Shown here in pieces: positions 1-18,680 of a stretch of 64,000 nucleotides of DNA. The notes beneath the pieces were generated by a model. That model did not search any database, had not been told where the DNA came from, and worked only from the letters and a program-made list of their open reading frames with translations. Origin of the DNA: Brevibacterium paucivorans (GTDB lineage: Bacteria > Actinomycetota > Actinomycetes > Actinomycetales > Brevibacteriaceae); assembly GCF_016907735.1 (NCBI RefSeq), contig NZ_JAFBCP010000001.1, positions 620,001-684,000 of the forward strand. Direction: 5' to 3'. A program made the position numbers and the translations under genes. The first letter of the stretch is position 1, and each line of letters starts with the position of its first letter.

Positions 1-167
1 TCCCGTGGGGTGGGTGTAGGTGTGACCGTGCCCGAGGTGGTTGCGGGTGAGTCGCTGTTTGGCACGGTGATCCGCGCGGTGGGTGCCGAGGGGGTTCTGT
101 CCTGGGGGATTGTTCTTCCAGCCCGGTGACCAAATGTGGGTGGCCCTCCCGTTTGGCCCTGGCTCAT
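1..167 (-). CDS. N-terminal fragment of the next gene in the tubulin-like/VWA operon (runs off the left edge)
   Basis: An ATG at 165-167 (minus strand) overlaps the TGA stop of the upstream 655-aa gene as ATGA, and the frame stays open to the window edge, giving 55 codons. The readable protein begins MSQGQTGGPPTFGH and is rich in Pro, Thr, Ser and Gly (for example TPTPTPR near the edge), so the visible part looks disordered. No domain can be named from it. The translational coupling argues that this is a sixth member of the operon. The product and length are unknown because the 3' end lies outside the window. Confidence 0.7.
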   Translation of the reverse strand, partial: MSQGQTGGPPTFGHRAGRTIPQDRTPSAPTARITVPNSDSPATTSGTVTPTPTPR

Positions 168-2131
168 TGCCAGTTCCCCTGCTGGTATTGCTGTTGTTGG
201 GGTGGCATGGGTTGTTGTTGCATTCCTTGCTGTTGGTAGAAGAAGTTCAACCACTCCGCTGGTTGCAGGCGAACAACAGCTGGGTCCAGGAGGGCGTACC
301 GTTTCATGTCCTCGGTGCGCATGTCGAGGAATGCACGGATGAAACCGTTGGGCTGTGGAACCGGGAACGTGTACACAGCGCCGTCGGGGTTCTCAAAAGT
401 CGAGTACAGCGCGTGTGGTCGCACGCTACGTCGTGGTTCATCGGCTGCGGGTGACACGCGGGTGAGAAGGACCCTGGACCCGTCGTCGGGGTGCAGTGGC
501 AAACGGGTGGGGTTGTGGACAACACACATGCTGACCTGTTCACGCAGATCACTTGCGACTGCTTTGACGTAGAGTTGTCCGTCCAAACCGCCAGCCTGGT
601 TGAGGTTCATCGCGAACTCGTACTGCAGCTTGACCAGGGGGTTGGAATCCAAACGAGTGGGCTTGGACAAGATGTCCCGTCCCCCGCTGAAAAGCCCGGC
701 AACCAGGTAGTAGGTGGAACCACCTCGGTCGTCTTCTCCTGGGAGCGATACCCCACCTTGGTCGCGGTACTTAGATTCGTCGATCTGCACAACAGGCGAG
801 CCGCTGAGCGCGGATTGCGCGTCACCGTCAATGTGTGTGCGGTACACGCGCACGGTGTCAGCACCCGAGGGCCACGCGAAGCTGATGATTTTGCGTCCAA
901 TGCGCTCCGTAAACTTAGCTTCCGTGACGGGACGGACCCGCTGACCGTGGATTGTGGTGCCCACGCGCACCTTGTCCCCGTCGAATACCACGGGGGTGAA
1001 GTATGCGCGGGTCCACTGTTCTGGCCATGGAACGCTGAACATGGAGGATGTGCCATCGTCGCCCTTGTGGACCGGCATTGCGAGCCGGGCGTCATCGGGG
1101 AGGAACCCTCGGTCATTGAGATACGACGCCGTGAGTTCTGTTTCCTGGTCGAGCCCGGACACCGGCGGTTTTTCAGTTCGGTAGATTTCTACACGACCGT
1201 GAAGCGGGGTCGACCACTTGAGGTCGAACTCGGGGCTTCGGCGGCCCTCGTTTTCATCAGGTTCGTGAAGAACAAATTCCAGGTCGGTCACCGGTTGCAG
1301 TCGAATGGGAATCGACATGGTGAACTCGGTGGGGTCTGACGCGTAACCGTCGTGCGACACCGAAACGAACTGGTAAATGTACGTTTCGCCTGGGATACCT
1401 TGGCCGTCGGTGAACCCTTGCGTGTTGGGTTTTGTTCCTGCCACGCGGTATTCGGGACCGGCAACGCCCGTGGTCTTGACCTTGGCGGGGACACGGTAGA
1501 CGTGGACGCTTGAAATTCCTTCCAGCGAGTCCCACTTCCCCACCACGTACTGTTCGTCCAAGCGAATGTTGGCGTTTTGAATTCCGTGAGTAATACGGCG
1601 GGCGGAGTGAAGCACCGGCTGCACGGTCTGCGCTTCTTCCACGGTTGGGGCTTCGTACCGCCACACCTGGTAATACCGGACGGCGTGACGTGGCCTACCG
1701 GTATCGATGGCCGAAGTGCCTTGAGTCACGACGACTTCTTCGGCCATGTCCGGTGAGTGAGGCTCACCTGCGTCCTGTGCCACCACACGGTACACGCACG
1801 GAGTTTCGCTGGGCTTCCACTCCAGGTGAACACCGTCGTCCTGAGCTTTCGCCTTCATGGTCAACGGCGTGGGTTGCTGGCCAAAGTTAAATGGCGCAAA
1901 CCGGATCCCGTGCAGCTGCTGAGGTTCCTCAGGGGCATCGTTTGGCTGTTCGACGTCCTGGTTTTGCGCACCCTGGGGTTGAGCGTCCTGGGGTTGGCCA
2001 CCCTGAGGCTGGACGTACGGGGCAGGTGGCTCCCAGGCTGGCTCCTGGGTTTCGTTCCCCGCCCGAGGTGGTGGAACGTCGATCCGTGGCTCTGGGATTT
2101 CGAACGGATCGTTGAAGTCGAAGGACGACAT
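164..2131 (-). CDS. 655-aa protein with Gln/Pro-rich ends and FN3-like repeats, tubulin-like/VWA operon
   Basis: No known function is recognised. Residues 1-90 are disordered and Pro/Gln-rich, with a short repeat of the type QPQGGQPQDAQPQGA. From about 100 onward a pattern of a hydrophobic-x-Trp strand followed by VYR/IYR recurs at about 103-116, 196-213, 303-318 and 417-431, which suggests four fibronectin-III-like beta sandwiches. The last 25 residues are almost all Gln, Pro and Met. There is no signal peptide and no membrane helix, so it is probably cytoplasmic. The ATG shares one base with the upstream stop (TAATG), so translation is coupled to the 899-aa gene. An NDPF motif sits near the N-terminus. 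It may be a scaffold or adaptor of the complex; that role is inferred only from context. Confidence 0.8.
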   Translation of the reverse strand: MSSFDFNDPFEIPEPRIDVPPPRAGNETQEPAWEPPAPYVQPQGGQPQDAQPQGAQNQDVEQPNDAPEEPQQLHGIRFAPFNFGQQPTPLTMKAKAQDDGVHLEWKPSETPCVYRVVAQDAGEPHSPDMAEEVVVTQGTSAIDTGRPRHAVRYYQVWRYEAPTVEEAQTVQPVLHSARRITHGIQNANIRLDEQYVVGKWDSLEGISSVHVYRVPAKVKTTGVAGPEYRVAGTKPNTQGFTDGQGIPGETYIYQFVSVSHDGYASDPTEFTMSIPIRLQPVTDLEFVLHEPDENEGRRSPEFDLKWSTPLHGRVEIYRTEKPPVSGLDQETELTASYLNDRGFLPDDARLAMPVHKGDDGTSSMFSVPWPEQWTRAYFTPVVFDGDKVRVGTTIHGQRVRPVTEAKFTERIGRKIISFAWPSGADTVRVYRTHIDGDAQSALSGSPVVQIDESKYRDQGGVSLPGEDDRGGSTYYLVAGLFSGGRDILSKPTRLDSNPLVKLQYEFAMNLNQAGGLDGQLYVKAVASDLREQVSMCVVHNPTRLPLHPDDGSRVLLTRVSPAADEPRRSVRPHALYSTFENPDGAVYTFPVPQPNGFIRAFLDMRTEDMKRYALLDPAVVRLQPAEWLNFFYQQQGMQQQPMPPQQQQYQQGNWQ

Positions 2132-4830
2132 TAGATAGCGTCACCTCCGAACGGGTTGTTCCACGTCGAAGGCTGCTCGTTCTGCGAGGGTTGCGCGTTT
2201 TGGGCGGGTTCAGAAACCGACCATTCCGAATTGCCCCAGTTCACATCACCGCTGTAGCTCTGTGCGAACTCCAGATCGTCAGGCGTGAGGTCACCCGTGA
2301 TTTGGGTGTGCACCAATACTTCTCCGAAACCAGCAGGCTGTTTGCGCACACTGTTAGCAATGACTGCGTGCTTGTCGTACCCCACGGCGTTCGCGGTGAG
2401 AAGTTCGTCGTCCAAGGTTTCGCGGATTTCTTGGTGGTCTTCCAGACCAACAGTTCCACGGAAGTCGTCCAGACTTTGGCTGGTGTGTTCGCCACTGATA
2501 TGGATTTGGCTGAGCAGAGCACGTCGCGTTGGTTCCATCCCAGGGTGGTCCAGACTGTTGCGCATCTGTTCCCAATAGCCAGCTTCCAGAGCCGGGTCTA
2601 CCCCGTTGTTCCGCAAAGACAGCGCCAGCACGGTGAGAACTGAGTCGTCGGCTGTGGACTGTTCAGCGAACAGAGAGTGCATGTCCGCACTCAACGGGAA
2701 GTTGTTGATTCCAGCCCGCTGGAGGCTCACATTGAGGAAGTTTCGGAATTGCTCTGACGTCCAACCCGTGTAGAACACCTCGGTCCGTAGCATGCGAGCG
2801 GTCTCTTCCACCTGAGCGTAATCGACCACGTACTCTGCGCTCCCCATGCTGATGGGGAGATCGTCAAAGCGGCGCTGTTCGCCACGCACCAGTTGCTTGC
2901 GGGAACCAAACGGCCGGTGGACAAACGCCCCCACAATATCTGCCCAACGCAAGTACTGGGAGTAGGCCTCACCGAGGCGCGTGAACTCAGAGATAGTCGC
3001 TTTGAGATTGCGGACGTCAATCTCTTGGTCTTCCCTGTCCTTCTTTCTGCGGTGGATCACTTGGAAAATATCGGTTTGGGTTCGCATGAACAGGCCAAAA
3101 GCACCTGCCAGACTTCCCACCAGGCTGATTCCAAACACTGTCCAGGCAAGCCACCACGGCGCCCAGTCCATACCGGCAAGGAAGAACATAAGAACGGTCA
3201 GCGCGGACAAATAGCCAAAAAGTTGCCTCAACTTCGCACTGAGAATGCGGTGTGCTTCAGCGAGCAGATGTTCTGAGTCGTCTTCTTCGTCAGTGTTGCG
3301 CCCCAGGTTCTTCATCCGCTCAGCGATTTCTTGGCGACGCGCTTCGAAGTTACTCGAAATAGCTTCACCAATCCGGCTGACAAATGACCTCCGGCTACGG
3401 TCGTACCAGTCAGTCATGTCGTTGAGCTGAGCGTCAGCGTCAGGTGTCTGCATGTCAGGGTCCTGCGCGACCGTCTTGATCTGCCGACCCACTTCCTGGG
3501 CGTGTACAAGGTCGGCTGGCTGAACACTCATCGCACCCAGGCGACCTGCGACGGAACCTTTAAGCGTGAAGATGTCCTCAGGGTCAGGCGCGACAACGGC
3601 GGGGTCACGCACGATTGTCGGCTGCGGAGTACGCGGTGGCAGGTCGCGGTCATGCGTTCCGTAGTCAAGAAGCGTAAGCGAGCTATACACCATGGATCGC
3701 CACACACCCGACATGTCGATGTTGTGGCGGTCGACCCCCAGCGCACCTTCAATGCGCTGGGCTGCGTTCATCGACTCTTGCCACCCTACTGGGCGACCGC
3801 TTGCGTCGATACCGCCAACAACGACGTTGTACTCTGAGGCACGGTCACCAAACACCAGCCCGTGAACGGTCTGCGCAACTGCGGCTTTTGTGGAGTCGAC
3901 GAGTCCGGATGCTAAAGCACCGGGCGTTCCCTTGATCGCGTTACCCAAGAACGCCCCGAACATTTTGAGCGCTTCACCCGCGGAAATCGGTTTGGGTTCA
4001 GGCGCCACGTACTGTTCGCGGTTAGGTGTCACCAGGTAACCGTGTTTTGCCCAGAAGTCTTGCAGTGCCTGATCGACAACGACACCGTCGTCTTCGAAGT
4101 ACCGTGACGGAGCACCCTGGTGGTTAGGCAGCGGGTACCCTGAAGCTGTTTCAAAAGCCTTGTCGCGCAGCGCGTCTTCAACGGCCGTGCCATCCAGGCG
4201 CCGGAAGAACGAACGTACTAAACGACCTCGGTACCCTTGGTAGGCAGGTTGCAGATCATCGACAGTTCCGTTCGGAACCGAATCCCACATACCCGCCAAC
4301 GGGGCGACCTGCGATGCCAAGAAAGCACACACCTCGGCGATATTTGCCGAGTTGACCGGCCGGGAACCCACCCGGGGGCCCTTCGAGTCCGACGGGCTCA
4401 ACACGACGTCAATCCAACCGTTGGAATCCGGCAACTCCACCTTGTTGGAGGTGTGTTCGGTGGCGAATACCGCGCGGATCGCCGAAACGTGCGCAGCCCC
4501 GAAATCCTGGGTGATGACATCGCGGACGAACGAACCCACCTGACCGGTCTTTGCCAAGCGTTCAGCGTCTTGTTCGGTACCCGTCACGGCTCCCAAGACC
4601 AGCACGCCAATGCGGGAGTACTGGACCTGACCGGACAAATAGCGCACGTCAACCGGCTTGAGCGCCCCTTGAGACACCAGTTGCGCGTTGAGATTGCGCC
4701 CCAGATCCTGAGCCTCAACGGGAATCCAAATGAAGTCGGAAACAAGACCGCTCACTTGCCAGTCACGTAACGTTTCACGCACACCAATGAGGTGCGCAGG
4801 CGCCACGATAAGACTCAGATTCGTGTCCAT
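2131..4830 (-). CDS. 899-aa protein with two central membrane helices, tubulin-like/VWA operon
   Basis: No family is recognised with certainty. The N-terminal 400 residues look like a soluble alpha/beta domain and are followed by a charged linker. Two membrane helices lie at about 539-553 and 560-582, so both large soluble parts should face the same side. The segment after the helices is very basic (HRRKKDRE), consistent with a cytoplasmic location, and the C-terminus ends in a short tail containing WNNPFGG. Start and stop codons overlap with both neighbours as TAATG, so the protein is made together with the tubulin-like GTPase. It is a plausible membrane anchor or partner for that GTPase; this is inference from gene order and topology. 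Confidence 0.8.
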   Translation of the reverse strand: MDTNLSLIVAPAHLIGVRETLRDWQVSGLVSDFIWIPVEAQDLGRNLNAQLVSQGALKPVDVRYLSGQVQYSRIGVLVLGAVTGTEQDAERLAKTGQVGSFVRDVITQDFGAAHVSAIRAVFATEHTSNKVELPDSNGWIDVVLSPSDSKGPRVGSRPVNSANIAEVCAFLASQVAPLAGMWDSVPNGTVDDLQPAYQGYRGRLVRSFFRRLDGTAVEDALRDKAFETASGYPLPNHQGAPSRYFEDDGVVVDQALQDFWAKHGYLVTPNREQYVAPEPKPISAGEALKMFGAFLGNAIKGTPGALASGLVDSTKAAVAQTVHGLVFGDRASEYNVVVGGIDASGRPVGWQESMNAAQRIEGALGVDRHNIDMSGVWRSMVYSSLTLLDYGTHDRDLPPRTPQPTIVRDPAVVAPDPEDIFTLKGSVAGRLGAMSVQPADLVHAQEVGRQIKTVAQDPDMQTPDADAQLNDMTDWYDRSRRSFVSRIGEAISSNFEARRQEIAERMKNLGRNTDEEDDSEHLLAEAHRILSAKLRQLFGYLSALTVLMFFLAGMDWAPWWLAWTVFGISLVGSLAGAFGLFMRTQTDIFQVIHRRKKDREDQEIDVRNLKATISEFTRLGEAYSQYLRWADIVGAFVHRPFGSRKQLVRGEQRRFDDLPISMGSAEYVVDYAQVEETARMLRTEVFYTGWTSEQFRNFLNVSLQRAGINNFPLSADMHSLFAEQSTADDSVLTVLALSLRNNGVDPALEAGYWEQMRNSLDHPGMEPTRRALLSQIHISGEHTSQSLDDFRGTVGLEDHQEIRETLDDELLTANAVGYDKHAVIANSVRKQPAGFGEVLVHTQITGDLTPDDLEFAQSYSGDVNWGNSEWSVSEPAQNAQPSQNEQPSTWNNPFGGDAI

Positions 4831-7800
4831 TAAAAGGCTCCAAATCCTTCAGGTAGATCGTTTGCGAAGCCGCCTCCGCCGCCGTTGCTTTCGGCGTCGG
4901 TCTTGGCTTCGTCGAGGAGTGTCATGAGTTCTTCGGTCACCTGCACGATGTCGGGCACAAGGTCGCAGAAGATCGGGGTTGCCGATCCCTGCGCACGTGA
5001 GTCAACCCGCACGCTGGCAGTCGACTTGTTCGCTGACGTGTCGAGCTTGCTTGCCGCGAACGTGTGGACGGTTTCGAGGAACTGGCGGGCGTTGGTGTAA
5101 CGCCCTTCGAGGTCTTCAGCGTCAGCACGTGACGGTTCGCCTGACGGGGTCTTACCGGTAGACAACCAGTCAGTGAGGAAGTCCCGGGCCGCGACAATCT
5201 GCAGACCTGAAGCTGGTTCTTCTTCACTGCCGTCATAAATGGAACGCAGGGTCTGGTACGGGATGAGCGAACCCAGCACCGGAGTTTGGTGAGCGTTCGC
5301 GATCGCCAACAGGAACGATTCCAGAACCGCAGGCAACCAGTCGAACGTCTCCCCCACGAATTCTGACGGTGGAGTGAGAAGCGGGTTGGGGAAATCGATC
5401 CACTGCTGGTTTTCCGCACGGAACACACGTACCGGACGGCCCAAGTTGCGGCGGTCTGGGATCTGCAGTTGTCCCGTCAGCTGTGCCACGTACCAACCGG
5501 CGATCATGGCGCGACGTTCCAGGTCGCTCATCGGCAGTGATGCAGGCAGTGGGCGTGCGCGTCGGAATGTCCAGAAGTCGCGACGCTGGCCAGCCGAGGT
5601 CAGGCGTGACCACCGGTCGGAGACCGGCTGAAGCACGCCGTCGAATGCGATGGGGCTCAGGTTTCCAAAGGATCCGAAGATGTCGACGTGGGTAATACCG
5701 GCCGCCGTCTGGCCCTGCGAAACGACCTTTTCAAGAATATCGACCGTCTGAGTGTCGACCGACTGCTGCGAGGTCAGGACTTCAGTCAGTGCGTCGACCA
5801 GGTCCGGGGCCGCACCGAACGGAACGGACGAGAACTTGTACTGATAACGGACCGCTGACGAGTGGACGCTTGCAACCACATCTGGGTGGACGCTTGCCAG
5901 TGGAAGTGCGCGCGTGAGTGTCTTGCGGAACTTGTCGGCAACGTCCTTTTTACGCTGGTCGATTTCGTGCGGAGCCGCACCGTCGTTACCCAGAATGTAG
6001 TCTTCGAGCGACAAAGCGCAGTAGTGTTCAAACGCTTCGTTACGGCGGTTGACGAACTGCAGTGCACGGTGGCGCAGTTCGTTCGCCTTCACGTGCAAGG
6101 TGTAACGTCCCGAGGTGGGTGTAATGGTGCGTGATTCCTGGCTACGTGGGTCGAACTTGTAGAAGGTGGGGCGCCAGTCGGAGTTGACCTCCAAGAGGCC
6201 ACCAGGTGCGCGGGAACCTTCTGCTGCTGGCCACTGTCCCGAGATGACGTGAGCCGCACCCTTTTGGCGGGCTGCGTCCCAACCGTTGTCGCCTTCGATG
6301 GTGGCTGGCAGGTGGCTGTTGTAGAGGTTCTGGAAGTCTTCGGCTGCCGTGATGAGGACTTCGTTGTGAGCCGTGGAGAAGCGTTCTGGAACGCGCTGGT
6401 CTTGGTCAGATGGCCATGCGGAGTACACGTCAGTTTCCACGTTTGCCAAACCGACCGTGCGGCTTGTTTCGCTCACGACCAGGTCAAGTGCTTGGATGGA
6501 CTCATCGATGGTCTTCAGCAGTGGCTGGATGAAGTCACGCGGAGCTTCGCTCAGAACGGAGGCGAAGATCTGGCTGGCTTCAATGAAGCACCCGTTGAGC
6601 AGACCCACGTGTAGGTCGTTGATGACCTGACGTTCAAACTGGTCACCCTGAACCATGTTTCCGCGCACTGCCGAAACCGACGCGGCAACCTGCTGGCTTG
6701 GGCGCATAATGTCAGGTGCTTGGTTTGCCCCCAAGTTGGAGCATGCCGCGGTGAGTTCGTGCTGGAGGAAGGACTTCATCTTCTCCATGAGCCCGCGGGC
6801 ATATGGCAGACCGTAGTCAGAAATCGCGTCTTCGAGCGAGGCGAGGAAAGCGCCCTGGAAGTTCAGCATCCAGTCAAACGTGGTGCGGACAACCGTCTGT
6901 GAAGCAAACTGGCGGAAGTGCGAGTGAGCGCTGCGCAGGTACGTCTCCAAGCTGGCCAACCAGTTAGGCCCCGACTGGCCCTGCGCACGTGGCATCTGCG
7001 AACCGGCCTGCTGTTCGACGAACTGACGCAAAGCCGAGTCCAGTTGCTGACCGCCGGCTGCTCCACGGATCCACGTCGCTAACTGGTTGATGTCACGAAC
7101 CTGCATTTCATTAGGCAGGCCCACGCGGTTCAGGAAGGTGTCCCACTGGGAGTCGATCAAACGGTTGAGCTGTTGTTGCGCACCCGCGCTCGAGCCTTCC
7201 TGCAAGTGCCCTTCACGCAGACGATCCACGGACGTGCGAGCCAAACGCTGCGAAGCGTAGTGACGGTACCGGTCACGGCCCAAGTTCAGCGAACCGAACC
7301 CGAACGTACCCCATGACAGACGCTCACCGGCTTCAACACCCCACCCCAGGTAGCTGCGGTTAGGTGAGAGCCCATCCTTGTTTGTCAGGTCGTACTGACG
7401 GAACGAAGACGAAGCCGAACCCGACACCATGAGGGCTGCGAGACCTCGGGCCAAACCACGGTAGACACCCTGCTGGGTTCCATCACCGAACGTGGTGCGG
7501 TCCAGCCCCTGGTACTTACCAACTGGGAACACGCGGGCAAACGACGGTCCGCCGGAGCGGTCGATGTGCTGGCCAAGTGCCTCCAGAATGCGCACGTCGT
7601 GCTCTTCCGAGGACACCGACTGAGCCGACACGATCTCACCCAACATACCCAGGGCGTTTGGTCGCACACCCTCGAGGCGGTCGGGGAAAATGTCGGAGGT
7701 GTACATGTACACACACGTGTCGTTGACCGAAACACCCTGCACCTGGCCCAGCAGGCGGCACACGTCAAGGGCCATCGACGCACCGGCACCACCGGCCATC

Positions 7801-8342
7801 GACGACACGACCAAAACCATTGGGGAGCCCTCCGGGTCAAACCCGCCGGAACCGGGGATGGCGCGGGCCGCCTCGGCCATTTCCGAATTTGCCTCCGTGG
7901 TCTTCATGCGGTTCACCGCACGTTGCAGACCCTGGAACACATCAGGGGCACGGTTCAGGGTGATCACACGGCCCACACCGCGCATCTGGCCAGCACCGTT
8001 CTTCAACGGAGTGGTTACCGCGGCGGGCTTGCGAGGCGCCCACGTCACAAACTGATCCAGGTCACCGGACTGCTGCAGCTTCTGGCTCACCGCCGAGTCA
8101 AGAACAGAGTAAGACCCAGACGAAGGCGCGGTTCCGATGTATGTACCGCCCTGGTCGCGTACGTTCCCCACACCCTTGACGTCCGTGTCGGGGACGGTTG
8201 GAACGTCGACGTGTACGAACTGCCAGCCTTCAGGCAGTTTCGAGATGCCGTGTGGCATGAGCTCAGACCGGAGCTGGTCCATCATGCGTGCCAGTGTTTC
8301 ACCACCGGATCCACCACAACCGACGACGAGGAACTTGTACAT
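4830..8342 (-). CDS. Tubulin/FtsZ-superfamily (tubulin-like) GTPase, 1170 aa
   Basis: The N-terminus MYKFLVVGCGGSGG (glycine loop at 8-14) and the motif SSMAGGAGAS at about 180-189 match the first nucleotide loop and the tubulin signature loop (GGTGSG in FtsZ/tubulin). The following region DRLEGVRPNALGML also fits the bacterial tubulin-like family (Pfam Tubulin_2). At 1170 residues it is far longer than FtsZ or TubZ, with some 800 residues of uncharacterised C-terminal sequence. No membrane helix is evident. A GAAAGG ribosome site lies about 7 nt before the ATG. The upstream neighbour is the VWA protein (28-nt gap) and the downstream gene overlaps by one base. Comparative genomics has linked such tubulin homologues to VWA proteins and membrane remodelling, but the polymer, the cargo and the phenotype are not known here. 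Confidence 0.85.
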   Translation of the reverse strand: MYKFLVVGCGGSGGETLARMMDQLRSELMPHGISKLPEGWQFVHVDVPTVPDTDVKGVGNVRDQGGTYIGTAPSSGSYSVLDSAVSQKLQQSGDLDQFVTWAPRKPAAVTTPLKNGAGQMRGVGRVITLNRAPDVFQGLQRAVNRMKTTEANSEMAEAARAIPGSGGFDPEGSPMVLVVSSMAGGAGASMALDVCRLLGQVQGVSVNDTCVYMYTSDIFPDRLEGVRPNALGMLGEIVSAQSVSSEEHDVRILEALGQHIDRSGGPSFARVFPVGKYQGLDRTTFGDGTQQGVYRGLARGLAALMVSGSASSSFRQYDLTNKDGLSPNRSYLGWGVEAGERLSWGTFGFGSLNLGRDRYRHYASQRLARTSVDRLREGHLQEGSSAGAQQQLNRLIDSQWDTFLNRVGLPNEMQVRDINQLATWIRGAAGGQQLDSALRQFVEQQAGSQMPRAQGQSGPNWLASLETYLRSAHSHFRQFASQTVVRTTFDWMLNFQGAFLASLEDAISDYGLPYARGLMEKMKSFLQHELTAACSNLGANQAPDIMRPSQQVAASVSAVRGNMVQGDQFERQVINDLHVGLLNGCFIEASQIFASVLSEAPRDFIQPLLKTIDESIQALDLVVSETSRTVGLANVETDVYSAWPSDQDQRVPERFSTAHNEVLITAAEDFQNLYNSHLPATIEGDNGWDAARQKGAAHVISGQWPAAEGSRAPGGLLEVNSDWRPTFYKFDPRSQESRTITPTSGRYTLHVKANELRHRALQFVNRRNEAFEHYCALSLEDYILGNDGAAPHEIDQRKKDVADKFRKTLTRALPLASVHPDVVASVHSSAVRYQYKFSSVPFGAAPDLVDALTEVLTSQQSVDTQTVDILEKVVSQGQTAAGITHVDIFGSFGNLSPIAFDGVLQPVSDRWSRLTSAGQRRDFWTFRRARPLPASLPMSDLERRAMIAGWYVAQLTGQLQIPDRRNLGRPVRVFRAENQQWIDFPNPLLTPPSEFVGETFDWLPAVLESFLLAIANAHQTPVLGSLIPYQTLRSIYDGSEEEPASGLQIVAARDFLTDWLSTGKTPSGEPSRADAEDLEGRYTNARQFLETVHTFAASKLDTSANKSTASVRVDSRAQGSATPIFCDLVPDIVQVTEELMTLLDEAKTDAESNGGGGGFANDLPEGFGAF

Positions 8343-8370
8343 GATCTATACCTTTCGAGGGGTGAGTCGC

Positions 8371-11300
8371 CTACTGGCCAAAACTAAAAGGGTTCTGCCC
8401 TGGCTGTCCAGGACCGGACTGACCTGGCCCGGATTGCCCGGGGCCGTTCTGGAATGGATTGTTTGGAGGTTGTCCAGGGGCTCCCGGTCCCGAGGTGCCA
8501 GGCCCGTTTCCCGGTCCGCCACCTGGTCCGGGGAAGGCTGGCCCGCTTCCAGGGCCACCGGGGTTGTTGCCCGGATTTCCGCTTGGGCCTGCACCTGGGC
8601 CACTTGGGCCTGCGCCTGGTCCGGGGAATCCGGGACCCGACGGTGGTCCAGCAGGGGGCTGGCCGCCAGGCCCGGCTGGCGGCTGGTTACCAGGCCCGGC
8701 AGGGGGCTGCCCTTGCGGGGCAGCGCCCGGGCTGGCCGATCCTGGCCCACCGAACGGACTGGACGGAGCTTGTGAAGGTGCGCCCGCCTCGGTGAAGGGG
8801 TTGGCCTGCGGCTCAGACGGACCGCCGAACGGCGAGTCGTGCCCAGCAGGGGCTTGCGCACCCGTGGACGGCAGACGGTCGATGAGATCGCCAGCTTCAC
8901 GTGCGATTTCGTCTTCCATCTTTTCACGTTGCTTCACGTCGATGTTTCCGGCGAGCAGCACAAGGATTTCGGCTTGGTCGTCGCGCATACCTTCGCCACG
9001 CATGACCAACCAGTGGTTGTGAACCGCTAAAGGCAGTCGCGCTGGGCGACGTGCAGGGTCGTGCTTGGACACGCTCATTGGCACATCAGCGACCACGTAT
9101 CCCTGACCCAGAGGTGATCCGCCCATCTTTGTCTTCAGCGTGATCCCTGCGGCATCGATCTGGCGGGAGCCACCCGAGTCGATCATGACGGTATTGCGCA
9201 TATCGCCCTGTTCGAACGCGAAACGTGAACCGTCACGCGTCACTCCAGAGGACGTCTTTTCAATCTGTGCGCGAACCGCGACCAGTGGCTGCGACGGGAT
9301 CTTCGCACCCCACCACTTGACGATGTAAAGAATCAGTAGCGGGATTCCCGGCCCCAGCAACAAAGCGATGATGAGGGTCGTAACGAAGTTGAGCGTGTTG
9401 AGAGGCTTGACGGCACTCGCGGTGAACTCAACTTTGGTTTTCACCGGTTCGCCCTGGCCGTTTTCAGACGAGGATACGACCACGAACGTTCCGTTGATCG
9501 CACCGTTGCCCTGCTGGTCGGAGGCCAGCTTCAGACCCAGATCCTCACCGGCTTTCACACAGTTGTCCTTGCTCGAAGCGTCGGAGGACACCTGCACCTT
9601 GTCTAGCCCTTGAGGCGAGGCAACCACCTCGGTGGAGTCCGGTTCTACCCACGCGCAACCTTTTCCGCCCAGCTTCAGAACCGAATCGAGGTCGATCTTG
9701 CCTTTAGCTTCCCCAAAGTCCACTTTGGTAGGCACGGTTGGGTAGTCCAGTGGCGGTTGCACCGTCACTGGGAGGGCCACAGTAGCGGGGCTCAGCTTGG
9801 TACCTTTGACTTCTTTTCCGTCAGAGTCTTTCGCCGAGGCGGTCGTCAGTTCCAGCGACAGGTTGAGGGTCCCGCCACCGGTAGGTGCATTGCCGAGGTC
9901 CCAGTCGGTTGGCTTGGTGATGTCACCAAATGAGCTGGTGTCGGTCAGCGTGGTTTGTTTTCCGGCGGAGTCGGTGAACGACGCGGTGAATTTACCTGTG
10001 CTGGTGATGGAGTCCACGGGCACGTCGTTACCTTCGCGGTCGTGCAGAGCGAAGGTGACGTCTTTCAGGGTGGATCCGGCGCGCACGTCAGCTTTGTCTT
10101 TATCGGGCCACGCGGGAACGATTCCCGGAGTGATGTGGAGGTTTGATTTGGACTTCGCTTGTGAGTCTGCGCCTTCGTCGGTAATAAACGCCAGGCGCCA
10201 CACACCTACCCACGGGCCTTTGTCGCCGATCTTGCCCTTCGACGTTCCGTCGAGTCGGAAACTGAGGCTCTTGCCGGTTTCCCACGAGTACGTGAGCGGT
10301 ACGCCAGAGACTTCCTTCTTTTCGTTCTTTGCGTCCTTTTTCAGGTCGACGATTTTTCCGTCGGGACCTTGGATCGCAGCCCGGAGACCGTCGGCTGTTG
10401 CGGTGGCAAAACCATCAACGTCTTGTGTGGTGTTGTCCAGGACGAACGTGTGGGCTTCGTTCTGGCAGAAGTCTTTGACACATACACCGTGGTCGTTGGT
10501 GACGGGCTTTTGCCCCAGGCCAGAGATCGAGTCGAATGCGATGAGCAAACTGTCGATGTCGGATGCGAGGTAGAACTCGCCGGGAACGGGGTCGGTGAGG
10601 TCACCACATGATTTGCCGCCGCTGTCTTTACCGGTTGCGATTGACCGCATGAGGTCGAATTCTTTTCCGTCTTTCGACCCTAGCCCCACACCGAACATAG
10701 CCACGCGAGAGCTTCGTAGCTGGTCGGCTAGACCACCGGAGCGGCAGATATCTTCACGCGCCTTTTCTTCGACCTTCTTGGTACCGTCTTCGGTTTTCAG
10801 GCTGATGTCTGGCGCGAATGGTTTGGTTTCTCCGTACTTGTTGGCCATGTTGCCTTTGCGAACTTCGTAGTCGAGTTCACCGTCGGAGAACCAGATGATC
10901 GCCTGGCAGCTCTTTGCGTCGCTTCCGCGGTCGTGGGCGCGCTTGGAGAGTTGTTTGCGCGCTTCGTCCATTGCCGTCCAGTAGTCGGTGTCAATACCGC
11001 TGGTCCGGTTGGACAGGTCGTTGATGGCACCGCGGAGGTTGTCGACGTCGCCGTCGTTCTTGACTTCTTGCCAGTCACGCACGGTGGAGTATTCGTGGCC
11101 GAAACCGCTGACGGCAACCGAGAGGTTGCCCGATTTAGTCAGCTTCGACATGCGCGAAACCAGGTGCAGCCCGGAGGTCACACGCGCGTTGTTAGGGTCG
11201 CTGTCGACCAGGCTCCCGGATTCGTCCACCAGAATAAGAACGTCGATGTTGCCACCTGCGGCGGCGCAGGCTGAGAACTGTTCTGGGAGCGGTTTTGAAC

Positions 11301-11472
11301 TGCCGAGGTCGCTCCCCCCTGATTTCTGTGAGTCACCGCTGTCCTGTGACGGCTCCTCGCTTGGTTGGGCGTGAACGGGGGTGGACAGACCCGCAAGACT
11401 CTGCGCTAGAAGAATGAATACGGCTACGAAGCCGATGAGAAGTTTGCTTGCGTGCGAACGAACGTTTTTCAC
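8371..11472 (-). CDS. Secreted, membrane-anchored VWA-domain protein with collagen-like Gly-Pro tail
   Basis: Starting at the GTG that overlaps the previous stop (GTGA, with GGGTGGGA just upstream) gives 1033 aa with an N-terminal signal peptide ending near VHA-Q. An ATG 15 nt further upstream is possible but has no ribosome site. A von Willebrand A domain follows, with the metal-site motif DESGS at about 83-87. Extracellular beta-rich sequence then runs to one membrane helix at about 691-722. Inside, after a charged domain, the last 150 residues are a Gly/Pro/Gln low-complexity tail with repeated PPAGPG and SGPGQ units and the motifs ANPF, NNPF and QNPF. This topology puts the adhesive VWA domain outside and the tail inside, next to the tubulin-like GTPase encoded 28 nt downstream. 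Ligand unknown. Confidence 0.88.
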   Translation of the reverse strand: MKNVRSHASKLLIGFVAVFILLAQSLAGLSTPVHAQPSEEPSQDSGDSQKSGGSDLGSSKPLPEQFSACAAAGGNIDVLILVDESGSLVDSDPNNARVTSGLHLVSRMSKLTKSGNLSVAVSGFGHEYSTVRDWQEVKNDGDVDNLRGAINDLSNRTSGIDTDYWTAMDEARKQLSKRAHDRGSDAKSCQAIIWFSDGELDYEVRKGNMANKYGETKPFAPDISLKTEDGTKKVEEKAREDICRSGGLADQLRSSRVAMFGVGLGSKDGKEFDLMRSIATGKDSGGKSCGDLTDPVPGEFYLASDIDSLLIAFDSISGLGQKPVTNDHGVCVKDFCQNEAHTFVLDNTTQDVDGFATATADGLRAAIQGPDGKIVDLKKDAKNEKKEVSGVPLTYSWETGKSLSFRLDGTSKGKIGDKGPWVGVWRLAFITDEGADSQAKSKSNLHITPGIVPAWPDKDKADVRAGSTLKDVTFALHDREGNDVPVDSITSTGKFTASFTDSAGKQTTLTDTSSFGDITKPTDWDLGNAPTGGGTLNLSLELTTASAKDSDGKEVKGTKLSPATVALPVTVQPPLDYPTVPTKVDFGEAKGKIDLDSVLKLGGKGCAWVEPDSTEVVASPQGLDKVQVSSDASSKDNCVKAGEDLGLKLASDQQGNGAINGTFVVVSSSENGQGEPVKTKVEFTASAVKPLNTLNFVTTLIIALLLGPGIPLLILYIVKWWGAKIPSQPLVAVRAQIEKTSSGVTRDGSRFAFEQGDMRNTVMIDSGGSRQIDAAGITLKTKMGGSPLGQGYVVADVPMSVSKHDPARRPARLPLAVHNHWLVMRGEGMRDDQAEILVLLAGNIDVKQREKMEDEIAREAGDLIDRLPSTGAQAPAGHDSPFGGPSEPQANPFTEAGAPSQAPSSPFGGPGSASPGAAPQGQPPAGPGNQPPAGPGGQPPAGPPSGPGFPGPGAGPSGPGAGPSGNPGNNPGGPGSGPAFPGPGGGPGNGPGTSGPGAPGQPPNNPFQNGPGQSGPGQSGPGQPGQNPFSFGQ

Positions 11473-12032
11473 AGGTGTCCCACCCATAGTGCGGTCAGAA
11501 TTGCGGTCACGATCACGGCGATCAACGTCAGGATCGCGGCCACCCAGTACAGGGTTGTTGCTGCTGGGCGCGAGGCGTACATCCCACCGGCTCGCCTGCG
11601 GACGTCAGTGGTGGTGAAGTTTCCTAGCATGAGGATCGCAACTGGCCCGGCGATGAGCCATCCGATGATGCCTGTGAAGCCCCACGGCAAAACCGCGATG
11701 ATAATTCCCAGGACCGCGCATCCAAGAACAATGAAGAGGATGTGCATGGGTGGCCCTGCAACCGTGAGATCACCGGAACTGGTTTCTGGCGCAAACGGAG
11801 CGTTCGGGGCTTGCTGGGCGCCCGGCTGATGCGAAGGATCTTGGGATTCGAAAGGGTTGGACGCTTGAGGCGCGTGACCCTGTTGTGGTGCTTGAGGTGA
11901 CGCGCCATGTTGCGGTGACGCACCCGGTTGGGGTGCCATGCCCGGCTGCTGTGCAGCTGGACCCCCTGGCTGGTTCGCAGGTGAGCTACCAAAGGGGTTG
12001 CCACCTGACCCTGATCCAAACGGCACCGACAC
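11469..12032 (-). CDS. Small membrane protein with disordered Pro/Gln-rich N-terminus, first gene of the tubulin-like/VWA operon
   Basis: 187 aa from a GTG start preceded by AAAGGGGG. The first 95 residues are rich in Pro, Gln, Gly and Ser and carry the motifs GGNPFGSS and SNPFESQ. The remainder has three hydrophobic helices: two between about 97 and 137 and one near 158-183, separated by a basic loop (DVRRRAGG). No family is recognised. It is the promoter-proximal gene, and its stop overlaps the start of the VWA gene, so the two are co-translated. It shares NPF motifs with the VWA and 899-aa proteins, which suggests that it belongs to the same membrane complex. Confidence 0.8.
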   Translation of the reverse strand: MSVPFGSGSGGNPFGSSPANQPGGPAAQQPGMAPQPGASPQHGASPQAPQQGHAPQASNPFESQDPSHQPGAQQAPNAPFAPETSSGDLTVAGPPMHILFIVLGCAVLGIIIAVLPWGFTGIIGWLIAGPVAILMLGNFTTTDVRRRAGGMYASRPAATTLYWVAAILTLIAVIVTAILTALWVGHL

Positions 12033-18294: not shown

Positions 18295-18680
18295 TGGTGG
18301 AGATGGCGGGAATTGAACCCGCGTCCGTCGGCAAATTGTCGATTCTTCTCCGGGCGCAGTACGTGTAAATGTGTCTTAGGTCCTGGGTAGCGCACGAACA
18401 CACTATCCCAACGAACGGAGTTGAGTAAGAGTCCCACTCACACCCCCAACATGTGTGAGCAGCAGTGGCTTTCTAAACGACGCCAGGATCTAGAGGGAAA
18501 GCACCTCTAGGCTGACGGAGTCGCAGCTCGCGGATTAAGGCCTAAATTAGGCGGCGAGGGCAAACTCGGTGCGGTTGTTAGATTTAGCACCTATTTTTTA
18601 CAGACAGCATCACGAGTTGAGTCTGCATTCTCGGCCCGCTTCTCCCGACGCAATGTCCAACGTCGAAACCGATCATCCCC
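18295..18680 (-). ncRNA. ssrA: Transfer-messenger RNA (tmRNA)
   Basis: About 386 nt. The 5' end GGGGATGATCGGTTTCGAC and the 3' end with T-arm GGGTTCAATTCCC and CATCTCCACCA form the tRNA-Ala-like domain; a 7-bp acceptor stem pairs with one G-U. The CCA is encoded. The tag reading frame (18547-18588) gives AKSNNRTEFALAA followed by TAA, with the ALAA end that marks the peptide for proteolysis. Several pseudoknot-like stems fill the rest. tmRNA with SmpB rescues stalled ribosomes. Here smpB lies 4.6 kb upstream, separated by a catabolic gene cluster, whereas the two are usually close neighbours. Confidence 0.97.

Follow-up and report, generated by a model that had tools for sequence, protein, structure and literature searches.

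The operon and its proteins

Sequence analysis of a stretch of 64,000 nucleotides (hereafter the window; C1:620001–684000 of the 2.41-Mb chromosome of Brevibacterium paucivorans, genome G000) showed that it begins within a nine-gene operon, all on the minus strand, that encodes a tubulin-like protein, TUB1170 (TUB), and a protein with a predicted membrane hairpin, G899. By sequence, the operon belongs to the FtsZl1 and GAP1-N2/DO-GTPase tubulin-theme systems, both already published. In many carriers, TUB and G899 were found to end in similar C-terminal peptides, and these twin tails are new as far as our searches show. The gene order is TM187-VWA1038-TUB1170-G899-FN655-GAP1-P328 (328 residues)-DO-GTPase2-membrane protein. 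The window holds five complete genes and the start of the sixth, and the operon reaches about 5.8 kb past the window edge, with the remaining part of GAP1 and three further genes, to G000:C1:614236. The features in the window, with expectation values (E) where a search was used, are as follows.

11469..12032, minus strand: TM187, the operon's first gene, 187 residues; three predicted transmembrane helices, preceded by a disordered N-terminal stretch in which NPF occurs twice
8371..11487, minus strand: VWA1038; VWA_2 match (E 4.9e-8) and one predicted transmembrane helix (residues 705–723)
11212..11226, minus strand: DxSxS motif of the metal ion-dependent adhesion site (MIDAS), vWA residues 88–92, from alignment
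4830..8342, minus strand: TUB1170, Tubulin_2/FtsZl1 protein of GTPase type with a long C-terminal region (PF13809, E 1.3e-40; alignments)
8301..8321, minus strand: T1-loop-like GxGGxGG, TUB residues 8–14 (alignment of 28 sequences)
7776..7796, minus strand: T4-loop-like AGGAGAS, TUB residues 183–189 (alignment of 28 sequences)
4833..4856, minus strand: last eight codons of TUB, LPEGFGAF, the twin-tail position (tail comparison)
2131..4830, minus strand: G899; N-terminal alpha/beta region, long helices around a two-helix membrane hairpin and C-terminal NPFG (low-confidence model)
3085..3225, minus strand: predicted membrane hairpin of G899, residues 536–582 (hydropathy)
2134..2157, minus strand: last eight codons of G899 (NPFGGDAI), the counterpart of the TUB tail (tail comparison)
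164..2131, minus strand: FN655, a protein of FN3-like repeats that begins with a Pro/Gln-rich region and looks cytosolic (profile search)
1..167, minus strand: first 167 bases of the GAP1-N2/GAP1-M gene, 962 residues (full gene G000:C1:617279-620167; Pfam)

TAATG junctions were found between the TUB and G899 genes and between those of G899 and FN655, and ATGA junctions between FN655 and GAP1 and between GAP1 and P328. The TM187 and VWA1038 genes overlap by 19 bases, and a 28-base gap lies between VWA1038 and TUB. The initial annotation of this DNA had placed five complete genes and a cut sixth at these coordinates on the minus strand. Its description of a three-helix membrane protein, a one-helix vWA protein with a signal-peptide-like start, a 1170-residue tubulin-superfamily protein with GxGGxGG at 8–14 and GGAGAS at 184–189, and an 899-residue protein with two helices (predicted at 536–554 and 564–582) was borne out. 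It missed the remainder of the operon because the window edge cuts the GAP1 gene at 167 bases.

Residues 5–372 of TUB matched Tubulin_2 with 140 bits (cut-off 27). In all 28 Tubulin_2 N-termini aligned, G8, G10, G11 and G13, the GAGQ motif, and A183, G184, G185 and G187 were invariant; we take these to correspond to the T1, T3 and T4 loops, respectively. The nearest named relative was a tubulin-like protein of B. mcbrellneri ATCC 49030 (97% identity). BLAST at first suggested that the vWA ectodomain of the window had been exchanged relative to B. mcbrellneri, but this was an artefact, the two proteins being 90% identical. When a profile of the 28 N-termini was compared with 177635 PDB sequences, the top two matches were TubZ entries (4xcq and 3v3t; E 0.14 and 0.41), which are weak and only hint at a relationship. 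The Tubulin/FtsZ family PF00091 was also matched in 18/18 genomes tested, 13 carriers and 5 non-carriers; these matches are taken as ordinary FtsZ, for which TUB is thus no replacement.

VWA1038 is predicted to consist of a signal-peptide-like hydrophobic N-terminus, an extracellular vWA domain with MIDAS, a beta-rich region, the transmembrane helix and a Pro/Gly-rich cytosolic tail. The MIDAS residues D88, S90, S92, T167 and D202 and the cysteines 74, 194, 248 and 294 were invariant in 9/9 sequences, and the best PDB match of its profile was the adhesive protein TRAP (E 0.009). The cytosolic tail contains five [NDS]PF motifs. Such motifs were enriched in the disordered cytosolic tails of the window (9 seen vs 0.8 expected from eight shuffled tails), which lie at 8374–8895 (VWA1038), 11748–12032 (TM187) and 2134–2160 (G899). 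They were weak or absent in many relatives and were found mainly in Brevibacterium and in genome G235.

For G899, no match was found in Pfam or NCBIfam, and the PDB profile search gave nothing better than E 0.85. The FN3-like nature that the initial annotation had given to FN655 is plausible: the six PDB matches of its family profile (E 0.07–0.51) were five fibronectin entries and one receptor phosphatase. It is unproven, since no Pfam match, including FN3, was found (E<=0.01), so that of the Pfam families named for searching in the initial annotation, Tubulin_2 and VWA (as VWA_2) were matched and FN3 was not. FN655 looks cytosolic rather than like an external adhesin, because no transmembrane helix was predicted anywhere in it. 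The GAP1 protein matched GAP1-N2 (E 1e-16) and GAP1-M (E 9e-6), and the eighth gene encodes a DO-GTPase2 domain (E 2.9e-10) in a protein with two CxxC pairs, seen by eye, which may be part of putative N-terminal zinc ribbons. P328 is regarded as another vWA-like protein, in this case cytosolic, as D-x-[ST]-x-[ST] was found in 19/21 aligned sequences (exceptions L148 and L150); support from Pfam models and PDB sequences was not found. The ninth gene encodes a multi-helix membrane protein. In the related operon of G235 (L026 203–1243), its place is taken by a protein that combines DUF4190 with an extracellular domain resembling PknH (E 1e-25) and has an N-terminal tail with PF motifs.

At its far end, the operon faces an agmatinase-like gene, identified by eye. 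About 1.2 kb from that end, with one gene between, lies a MoxR-DUF58-vWA-vWA-TPR cluster (Pfam; L006 4920–10076 = G000:C1:607921-613077), presumably of the aerotolerance type. Elsewhere in the window, a transfer-messenger RNA gene with the tag AKSNNRTEFALAA was found at 18295–18680, upstream of opp transporter genes. An opp transporter gene was tried as an anchor for the empty site and was unusable, as matches at E<=1e-150 were found in 28/57 genomes and only two were more than 56% identical.

Distribution and linkage of the gene set

Within Brevibacterium, Tubulin_2 was detected in 5/57 genomes and GAP1-N2 in the same five. The five tubulins formed one clade (100/100) that fits one gain; a comparison tree of FtsZ, built with untrimmed ends, was mostly unresolved inside the genus. 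In a second genus (that of G431, probably Corynebacterium), Tubulin_2 was present in 45/151 sampled genomes, the carriers being 2.0–3.5 Mb in size, and GAP1-N2 in the same 45; a C. glutamicum control genome was positive for both. The two domains were on one contig, about 8–9 kb apart, in 41/45, and on separate contigs of fragmented assemblies in the other four (G472, G494, G561 and G578). Twenty of the 45 operons were fetched whole, and all 20 showed the order TM187-VWA-TUB-G899-FN3-GAP1-P328-DO-GTPase. Seven of these genes were recognised by profile in 20/20; P328 was recognised in 12, with a gene of similar size at the same place in the other 8. The profile of the window operon's ninth gene had no match in the 20 operons, and the genes after the DO-GTPase vary. 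By sequence, the first eight genes are thus inherited as a unit in two genera, and the identical sets of carriers for tubulin and GAP1 speak for a single machine made up of the entire set in these genera.

A sample of the class gave Tubulin_2 in 28/394 genomes and GAP1-N2 in 50/394; among the matches listed, 12 genomes had both, close together in five (G000, G235, G334, G420 and G431) and distant or on other contigs in seven. Families of the large-genome (streptomycete) type (f24–f26) mostly had one or the other singly, and G205 and G438 contained GAP1-N2 and not Tubulin_2. The wider Tubulin_2 family is found in other settings too. Thus, on whether the genes are linked or scattered, linkage held in two genera, whereas in the class sample only 5/28 genomes with Tubulin_2 had GAP1-N2 nearby.

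Among viral contigs, where 94 pattern matches were obtained, no relative was found. Among plasmids, the window protein matched two records from Rhodococcus, and a protein of the large-genome type matched one from Nonomuraea; tubulin and G899 genes were identified on the 1.39-Mb plasmid of Rhodococcus sp. JS3073 (L212), and the other Rhodococcus record is from R. opacus. Two operons, both from one family, have a TerD-like gene behind that of the DO-GTPase (L028 1688–2260, E 4e-11; L029 17986–18531, E 2e-4, the latter below the Pfam cut-off). In four genomes of the second genus (L132–L134 and L138), a GroEL-like frame, seen by eye, follows the operon, which suggests a fixed chromosomal site there.

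The C-terminal tails of TUB and G899

In the second genus, TUB and G899 were found to end in the same peptide of about eight residues, which differs between species; elsewhere the two proteins are unlike. The likeness was first spotted during inspection of the [NDS]PF tails, and the idea was noted before scoring, in which BLOSUM62 values were summed without gaps along the eight C-terminal residues. In the discovery set (n=20), the mean score was 19.9 for cognate pairs compared to 1.1 for non-cognate pairs, a value reached by 0/5000 shuffles, and the other 27 pairs of operon proteins scored -2.25 or lower. A hold-out of 18 of the 24 unexamined carriers gave 18.1 vs 0.5 (0/20000); the six left out were G472, G494, G540, G561 and G578, with cut or split assemblies, and G519, without a stated reason. 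Eight further loci (the window, three others from Brevibacterium and four of two other families including G431) gave 7.3 vs -3.4 (95/20000), and thinning to 22 sequences with less than 55% identity gave 13.4 vs -2.9 (0/20000). L008 was excluded from the counts, its contig ending within G899. Of 46 TUB/G899 pairs, 35 scored above the 95th, 27 above the 99th and 24 above the 99.9th percentile of background. The two tails were acidic in 43/46 and 44/46 and ended in a hydrophobic or aromatic residue in 44/46 and 41/46, respectively. In eight genomes, the back-translated pattern DLD[DE]TF-stop occurred exactly twice per genome (reversed control 0); spacing and sequence fit the ends of TUB and G899, and a third protein with that exact tail is therefore absent there.

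Similar tails were detected beyond the GAP1 type. In the distant vWA-tubulin loci L030–L033, from genomes without a GAP1-N2 match, the best same-strand matches to the TUB tail were REFL/REFL (L030), DTGV/DSGI (L032) and TGIL/TGIL (L033), and a larger G899 profile recognised the partners in these three loci (E 5e-38, 3e-21 and 2e-14). The partner in L032 had shown a weak BLAST match to G899 beforehand; in L033 the G899 gene is split, with the tail on the half that matches the hairpin region. L031 is doubtful, its G899 part being the second-best tail match. Of nine loci from other families (L204–L212), G899 was the best tail match in L204, L206, L207 and L210 and tied in L205; the genome of L210 is closely related to that of L030 (tubulins 93% identical) and L211 is truncated. 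In 18 loci of the large-genome type (L034, L035 and L186–L201), no G899 match was obtained at E<=10 and a twin tail was mostly not found; the best tail-matching neighbours there were in L034, L035 and L198 (p 0.001–0.005). The tail pair thus goes with G899, yet is not universal.

The G899 tail was found to follow the TUB core when the G899 core was held constant (matrix correlation, partial r 0.55, 0/2000; hold-out 0.26, 6/2000). With TUB held constant, the corresponding value for G899's own core was -0.11 (hold-out 0.05). The vWA protein, TM187, GAP1 (-0.18) and P328 (-0.02) did not track the tail, and P328 was on this ground rejected as a tail reader.

These results point to the twin tail as a shared docking peptide that would tie a tubulin polymer to the membrane. 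We tentatively propose, at somewhat less than even confidence, that the hairpin protein G899 bears a copy of the tubulin's C-terminal peptide, co-evolves with it and docks as the next subunit would, or that both tails compete for one reader. Several observations weigh against this proposal. Several tails of the hold-out are almost identical to tails of the discovery set or to each other. When the cognate G899 tail was compared with that of the nearest relative, it was better in 14, tied in 3 and worse in 5 of the 22 cases below 55% identity, better in 17/31 (1 tie) below 70% and in 15/35 (5 ties) below 90%; much of the likeness is therefore shared ancestry. The tails of the window itself are weakly alike (score 7, above the 95th and below the 99th background percentile), as are those of Brevibacterium generally (L007 7, L009 and L024 2); scores were negative in L026, L156, L162, L164 and L167 and zero in L155. 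Among the loci of other families, a twin tail was not found in L208, L209 and L212. DO-GTPase (0.42) and FN3 (0.33) also track the G899 tail, and since TUB is a slow-evolving marker and thereby the better clock, the correlations rank candidate readers without naming one. Regarding the polymer itself, the probability given by hhalign for the TUB N-terminus against actinobacterial FtsZ was 1.4%. The AlphaFold2 models of TUB (mean predicted local distance difference test score 41.5) and G899, made from four sequences, were poor, both at about 41, and fold searches with the two models were set aside as meaningless. In addition, the T6-H7 elements are reported (PMC2875224) as unidentifiable in the FtsZl1 family, and polymerisation of TUB is therefore not assured.

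Alternatively, the tail may serve as an address at the C-terminus that is recognised by a third component and not by the TUB core. This component, which would gather or remove both proteins, could be encoded in the operon (DO-GTPase, FN3 or GAP1) or elsewhere, as a PDZ-like or AAA+ protein. Acidic tails with a mostly hydrophobic or aromatic end suit C-terminal readers, and the distances of the DO-GTPase track the tail. The TUB core nevertheless tracks it best, and the cytosolic vWA-like protein and GAP1 do not track it; we regard such a reader as possible, if rather doubtful.

That the likeness is a by-product of the next gene's ribosome-binding site or of DNA copying, and not of protein recognition, is very improbable and is largely refuted. 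The TUB and G899 genes of the window do overlap the next start codons and both tails have Shine-Dalgarno-like bases, but the mean score was highest (23.4) in the 15 operons without a Shine-Dalgarno-like 4-mer in either tail, L141, whose G899 gene as called ends 20 bases ahead of FN3, still scored 34, and the non-cognate shuffles are under the same constraint. Beyond residue -8 the likeness is abruptly lost, and the tails were not copied as DNA, because identical residues use the same codon in 83/171 cases (0.485), as predicted from codon usage (0.472).

Proposed function and comparison with known systems

We lean modestly towards the view that the operon encodes a single membrane-bound machine, similar in kind to the FtsZl1 and GAP1-N2/DO-GTPase systems. 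In such a machine, the vWA ectodomain would read a ligand or the state of the envelope, and the DO-GTPase/GAP1 pair may act as a switch over GTP-dependent assembly of TUB at the inner face of the membrane. The C-terminal peptide of TUB would be its docking tail and, as G899 has the same tail, both would bind one reader. By analogy with TubZ/PhuZ, this reader would most likely be the TUB core itself; G899 would then fix the filament to the membrane by mimicry of the tail. The output would more likely be local remodelling of the membrane or envelope than cell killing, because the gene content is fixed and no effector domain was seen by Pfam in the proteins scanned (this operon, nine relatives, and five GAP1 and five FN3 proteins of the second genus, each from 5 of its 20 operons). 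If the tail mimicry is true, each species would have a private code for tethering its prokaryotic tubulin, maintained through selection on about eight residues of two non-homologous proteins.

The systems described by Kaur et al. were instead interpreted as anti-phage conflict systems, in which FN3 and vWA proteins sense the invader, the GTPase and GAP1 set a threshold and the tubulin forms a superstructure for containment or suicide. For the operon described here this is conceivable, though on balance improbable. We keep it in consideration because the operon has a patchy presence (5/57 and 45/151), because of the TerD-like genes after two related operons (E 4e-11 and 2e-4) and because of the published association of GAP1-N2 with multicellularity; placement in the GAP1-N2/DO-GTPase family and the argument of that paper favour it as well. 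The paper (PMC7159879) reports that GAP1-N2 is strongly linked to multicellular life, which speaks against our envelope interpretation. Against the conflict interpretation, PADLOC was unconvincing for the nine operon proteins (the best matches were those of G899 to LeoBC, E 0.003, and of GAP1 to BrxB, E 0.03). Gene order was constant in 20/20 operons and no effector domain was seen in the proteins scanned, whereas such systems are said to be marked by variable effectors, although the genes after the DO-GTPase, unscanned in the 20, do vary. The fixed order, the effector domains not seen, the 2.0–3.5 Mb genomes of the second-genus carriers and the PADLOC result are the reasons why we lean to an envelope or membrane machine, and the fixed gene order in small genomes questions a conflict function linked to multicellularity.

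The initial annotation had further suggested that, with a vWA receptor outside, an external signal or adhesion is coupled to a filament in the cytoplasm. An adhesion device of this kind, in which the receptor would pull on the filament, is a conjecture and unlikely: the extracellular vWA with MIDAS, its conserved cysteines and cytosolic tail and the TRAP match agree with it, but no adhesin domain besides vWA was found in Pfam and the FN3 protein has no predicted helix. The broader claim of a membrane and cytoskeletal complex with a tubulin-type GTPase and a membrane vWA protein is supported by sequence. The complex is not undescribed, as the families were in print in 2010 and 2020.

Operons of FtsZl1 with vWA were published by Makarova and Koonin in 2010 (PMC2875224), with membrane remodelling as the proposed function; a reviewer of that paper named cgR_2627 of C. 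glutamicum as such a vWA protein. These operons resemble the one described here in the tubulin family itself, a vWA partner with a signal peptide, a GTPase partner, many membrane proteins and the presence of ordinary FtsZ as well; they differ in that shared tails are not mentioned in the accessible text of that paper ('tail' occurs 0 times). The actinobacterial combination of tubulin, FNIII, membrane vWA, GAP1 and DO-GTPase was published by Kaur et al. in 2020 (PMC7159879). Their tubulin theme combines GAP1-N2 and DO-GTPase with a single tubulin whose C-terminal region is helical, a membrane vWA protein that is beta-rich in part and an FN3 protein; the operon described here agrees, with FN655 as the putative FN3 protein. 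In their systems an HRDC domain is fused to one FN3 protein, an actinobacterial feature though not part of the defining core; by Pfam, HRDC was not found in FN655 (E<=0.01), four relatives (E<=0.05) or five second-genus proteins (E<=0.01). G899, the cytosolic vWA-like P328 and the terminal membrane proteins are present here and are not among the parts described in the accessible text of PMC7159879, and the carriers here include genomes of 2.0–3.5 Mb, in contrast to those systems. A term search of the available text of both papers did not find the twin tails, and among the openly licensed papers listed by our literature searches, no experimental work or biochemistry on FtsZl1 tubulins was seen.

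In TubZ and PhuZ (PMC3678025, PMC5322520), the C-terminal tail packs along or contacts the next subunit, and for one TubZ removal of the last eight residues alters the filament. They resemble TUB in the glycine-rich T4 region, and their flexible C-terminal tail, which functions in binding to partners and to the adjacent subunit (PMC3678025, PMC5322520), parallels the one proposed for TUB. They differ in that clear sequence homology to TUB is absent (best E 0.14) and in their role, which is transport of plasmid or phage DNA. We know of no membrane partner of TubZ or PhuZ with a copy of the tail. The polymer of FtsZ is tied to the membrane via a conserved C-terminal peptide, which the anchor binds. 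The proposed machine would likewise tether a tubulin-like polymer to the membrane via a C-terminal peptide, and it differs from FtsZ in that here the membrane protein itself carries a copy of the peptide.

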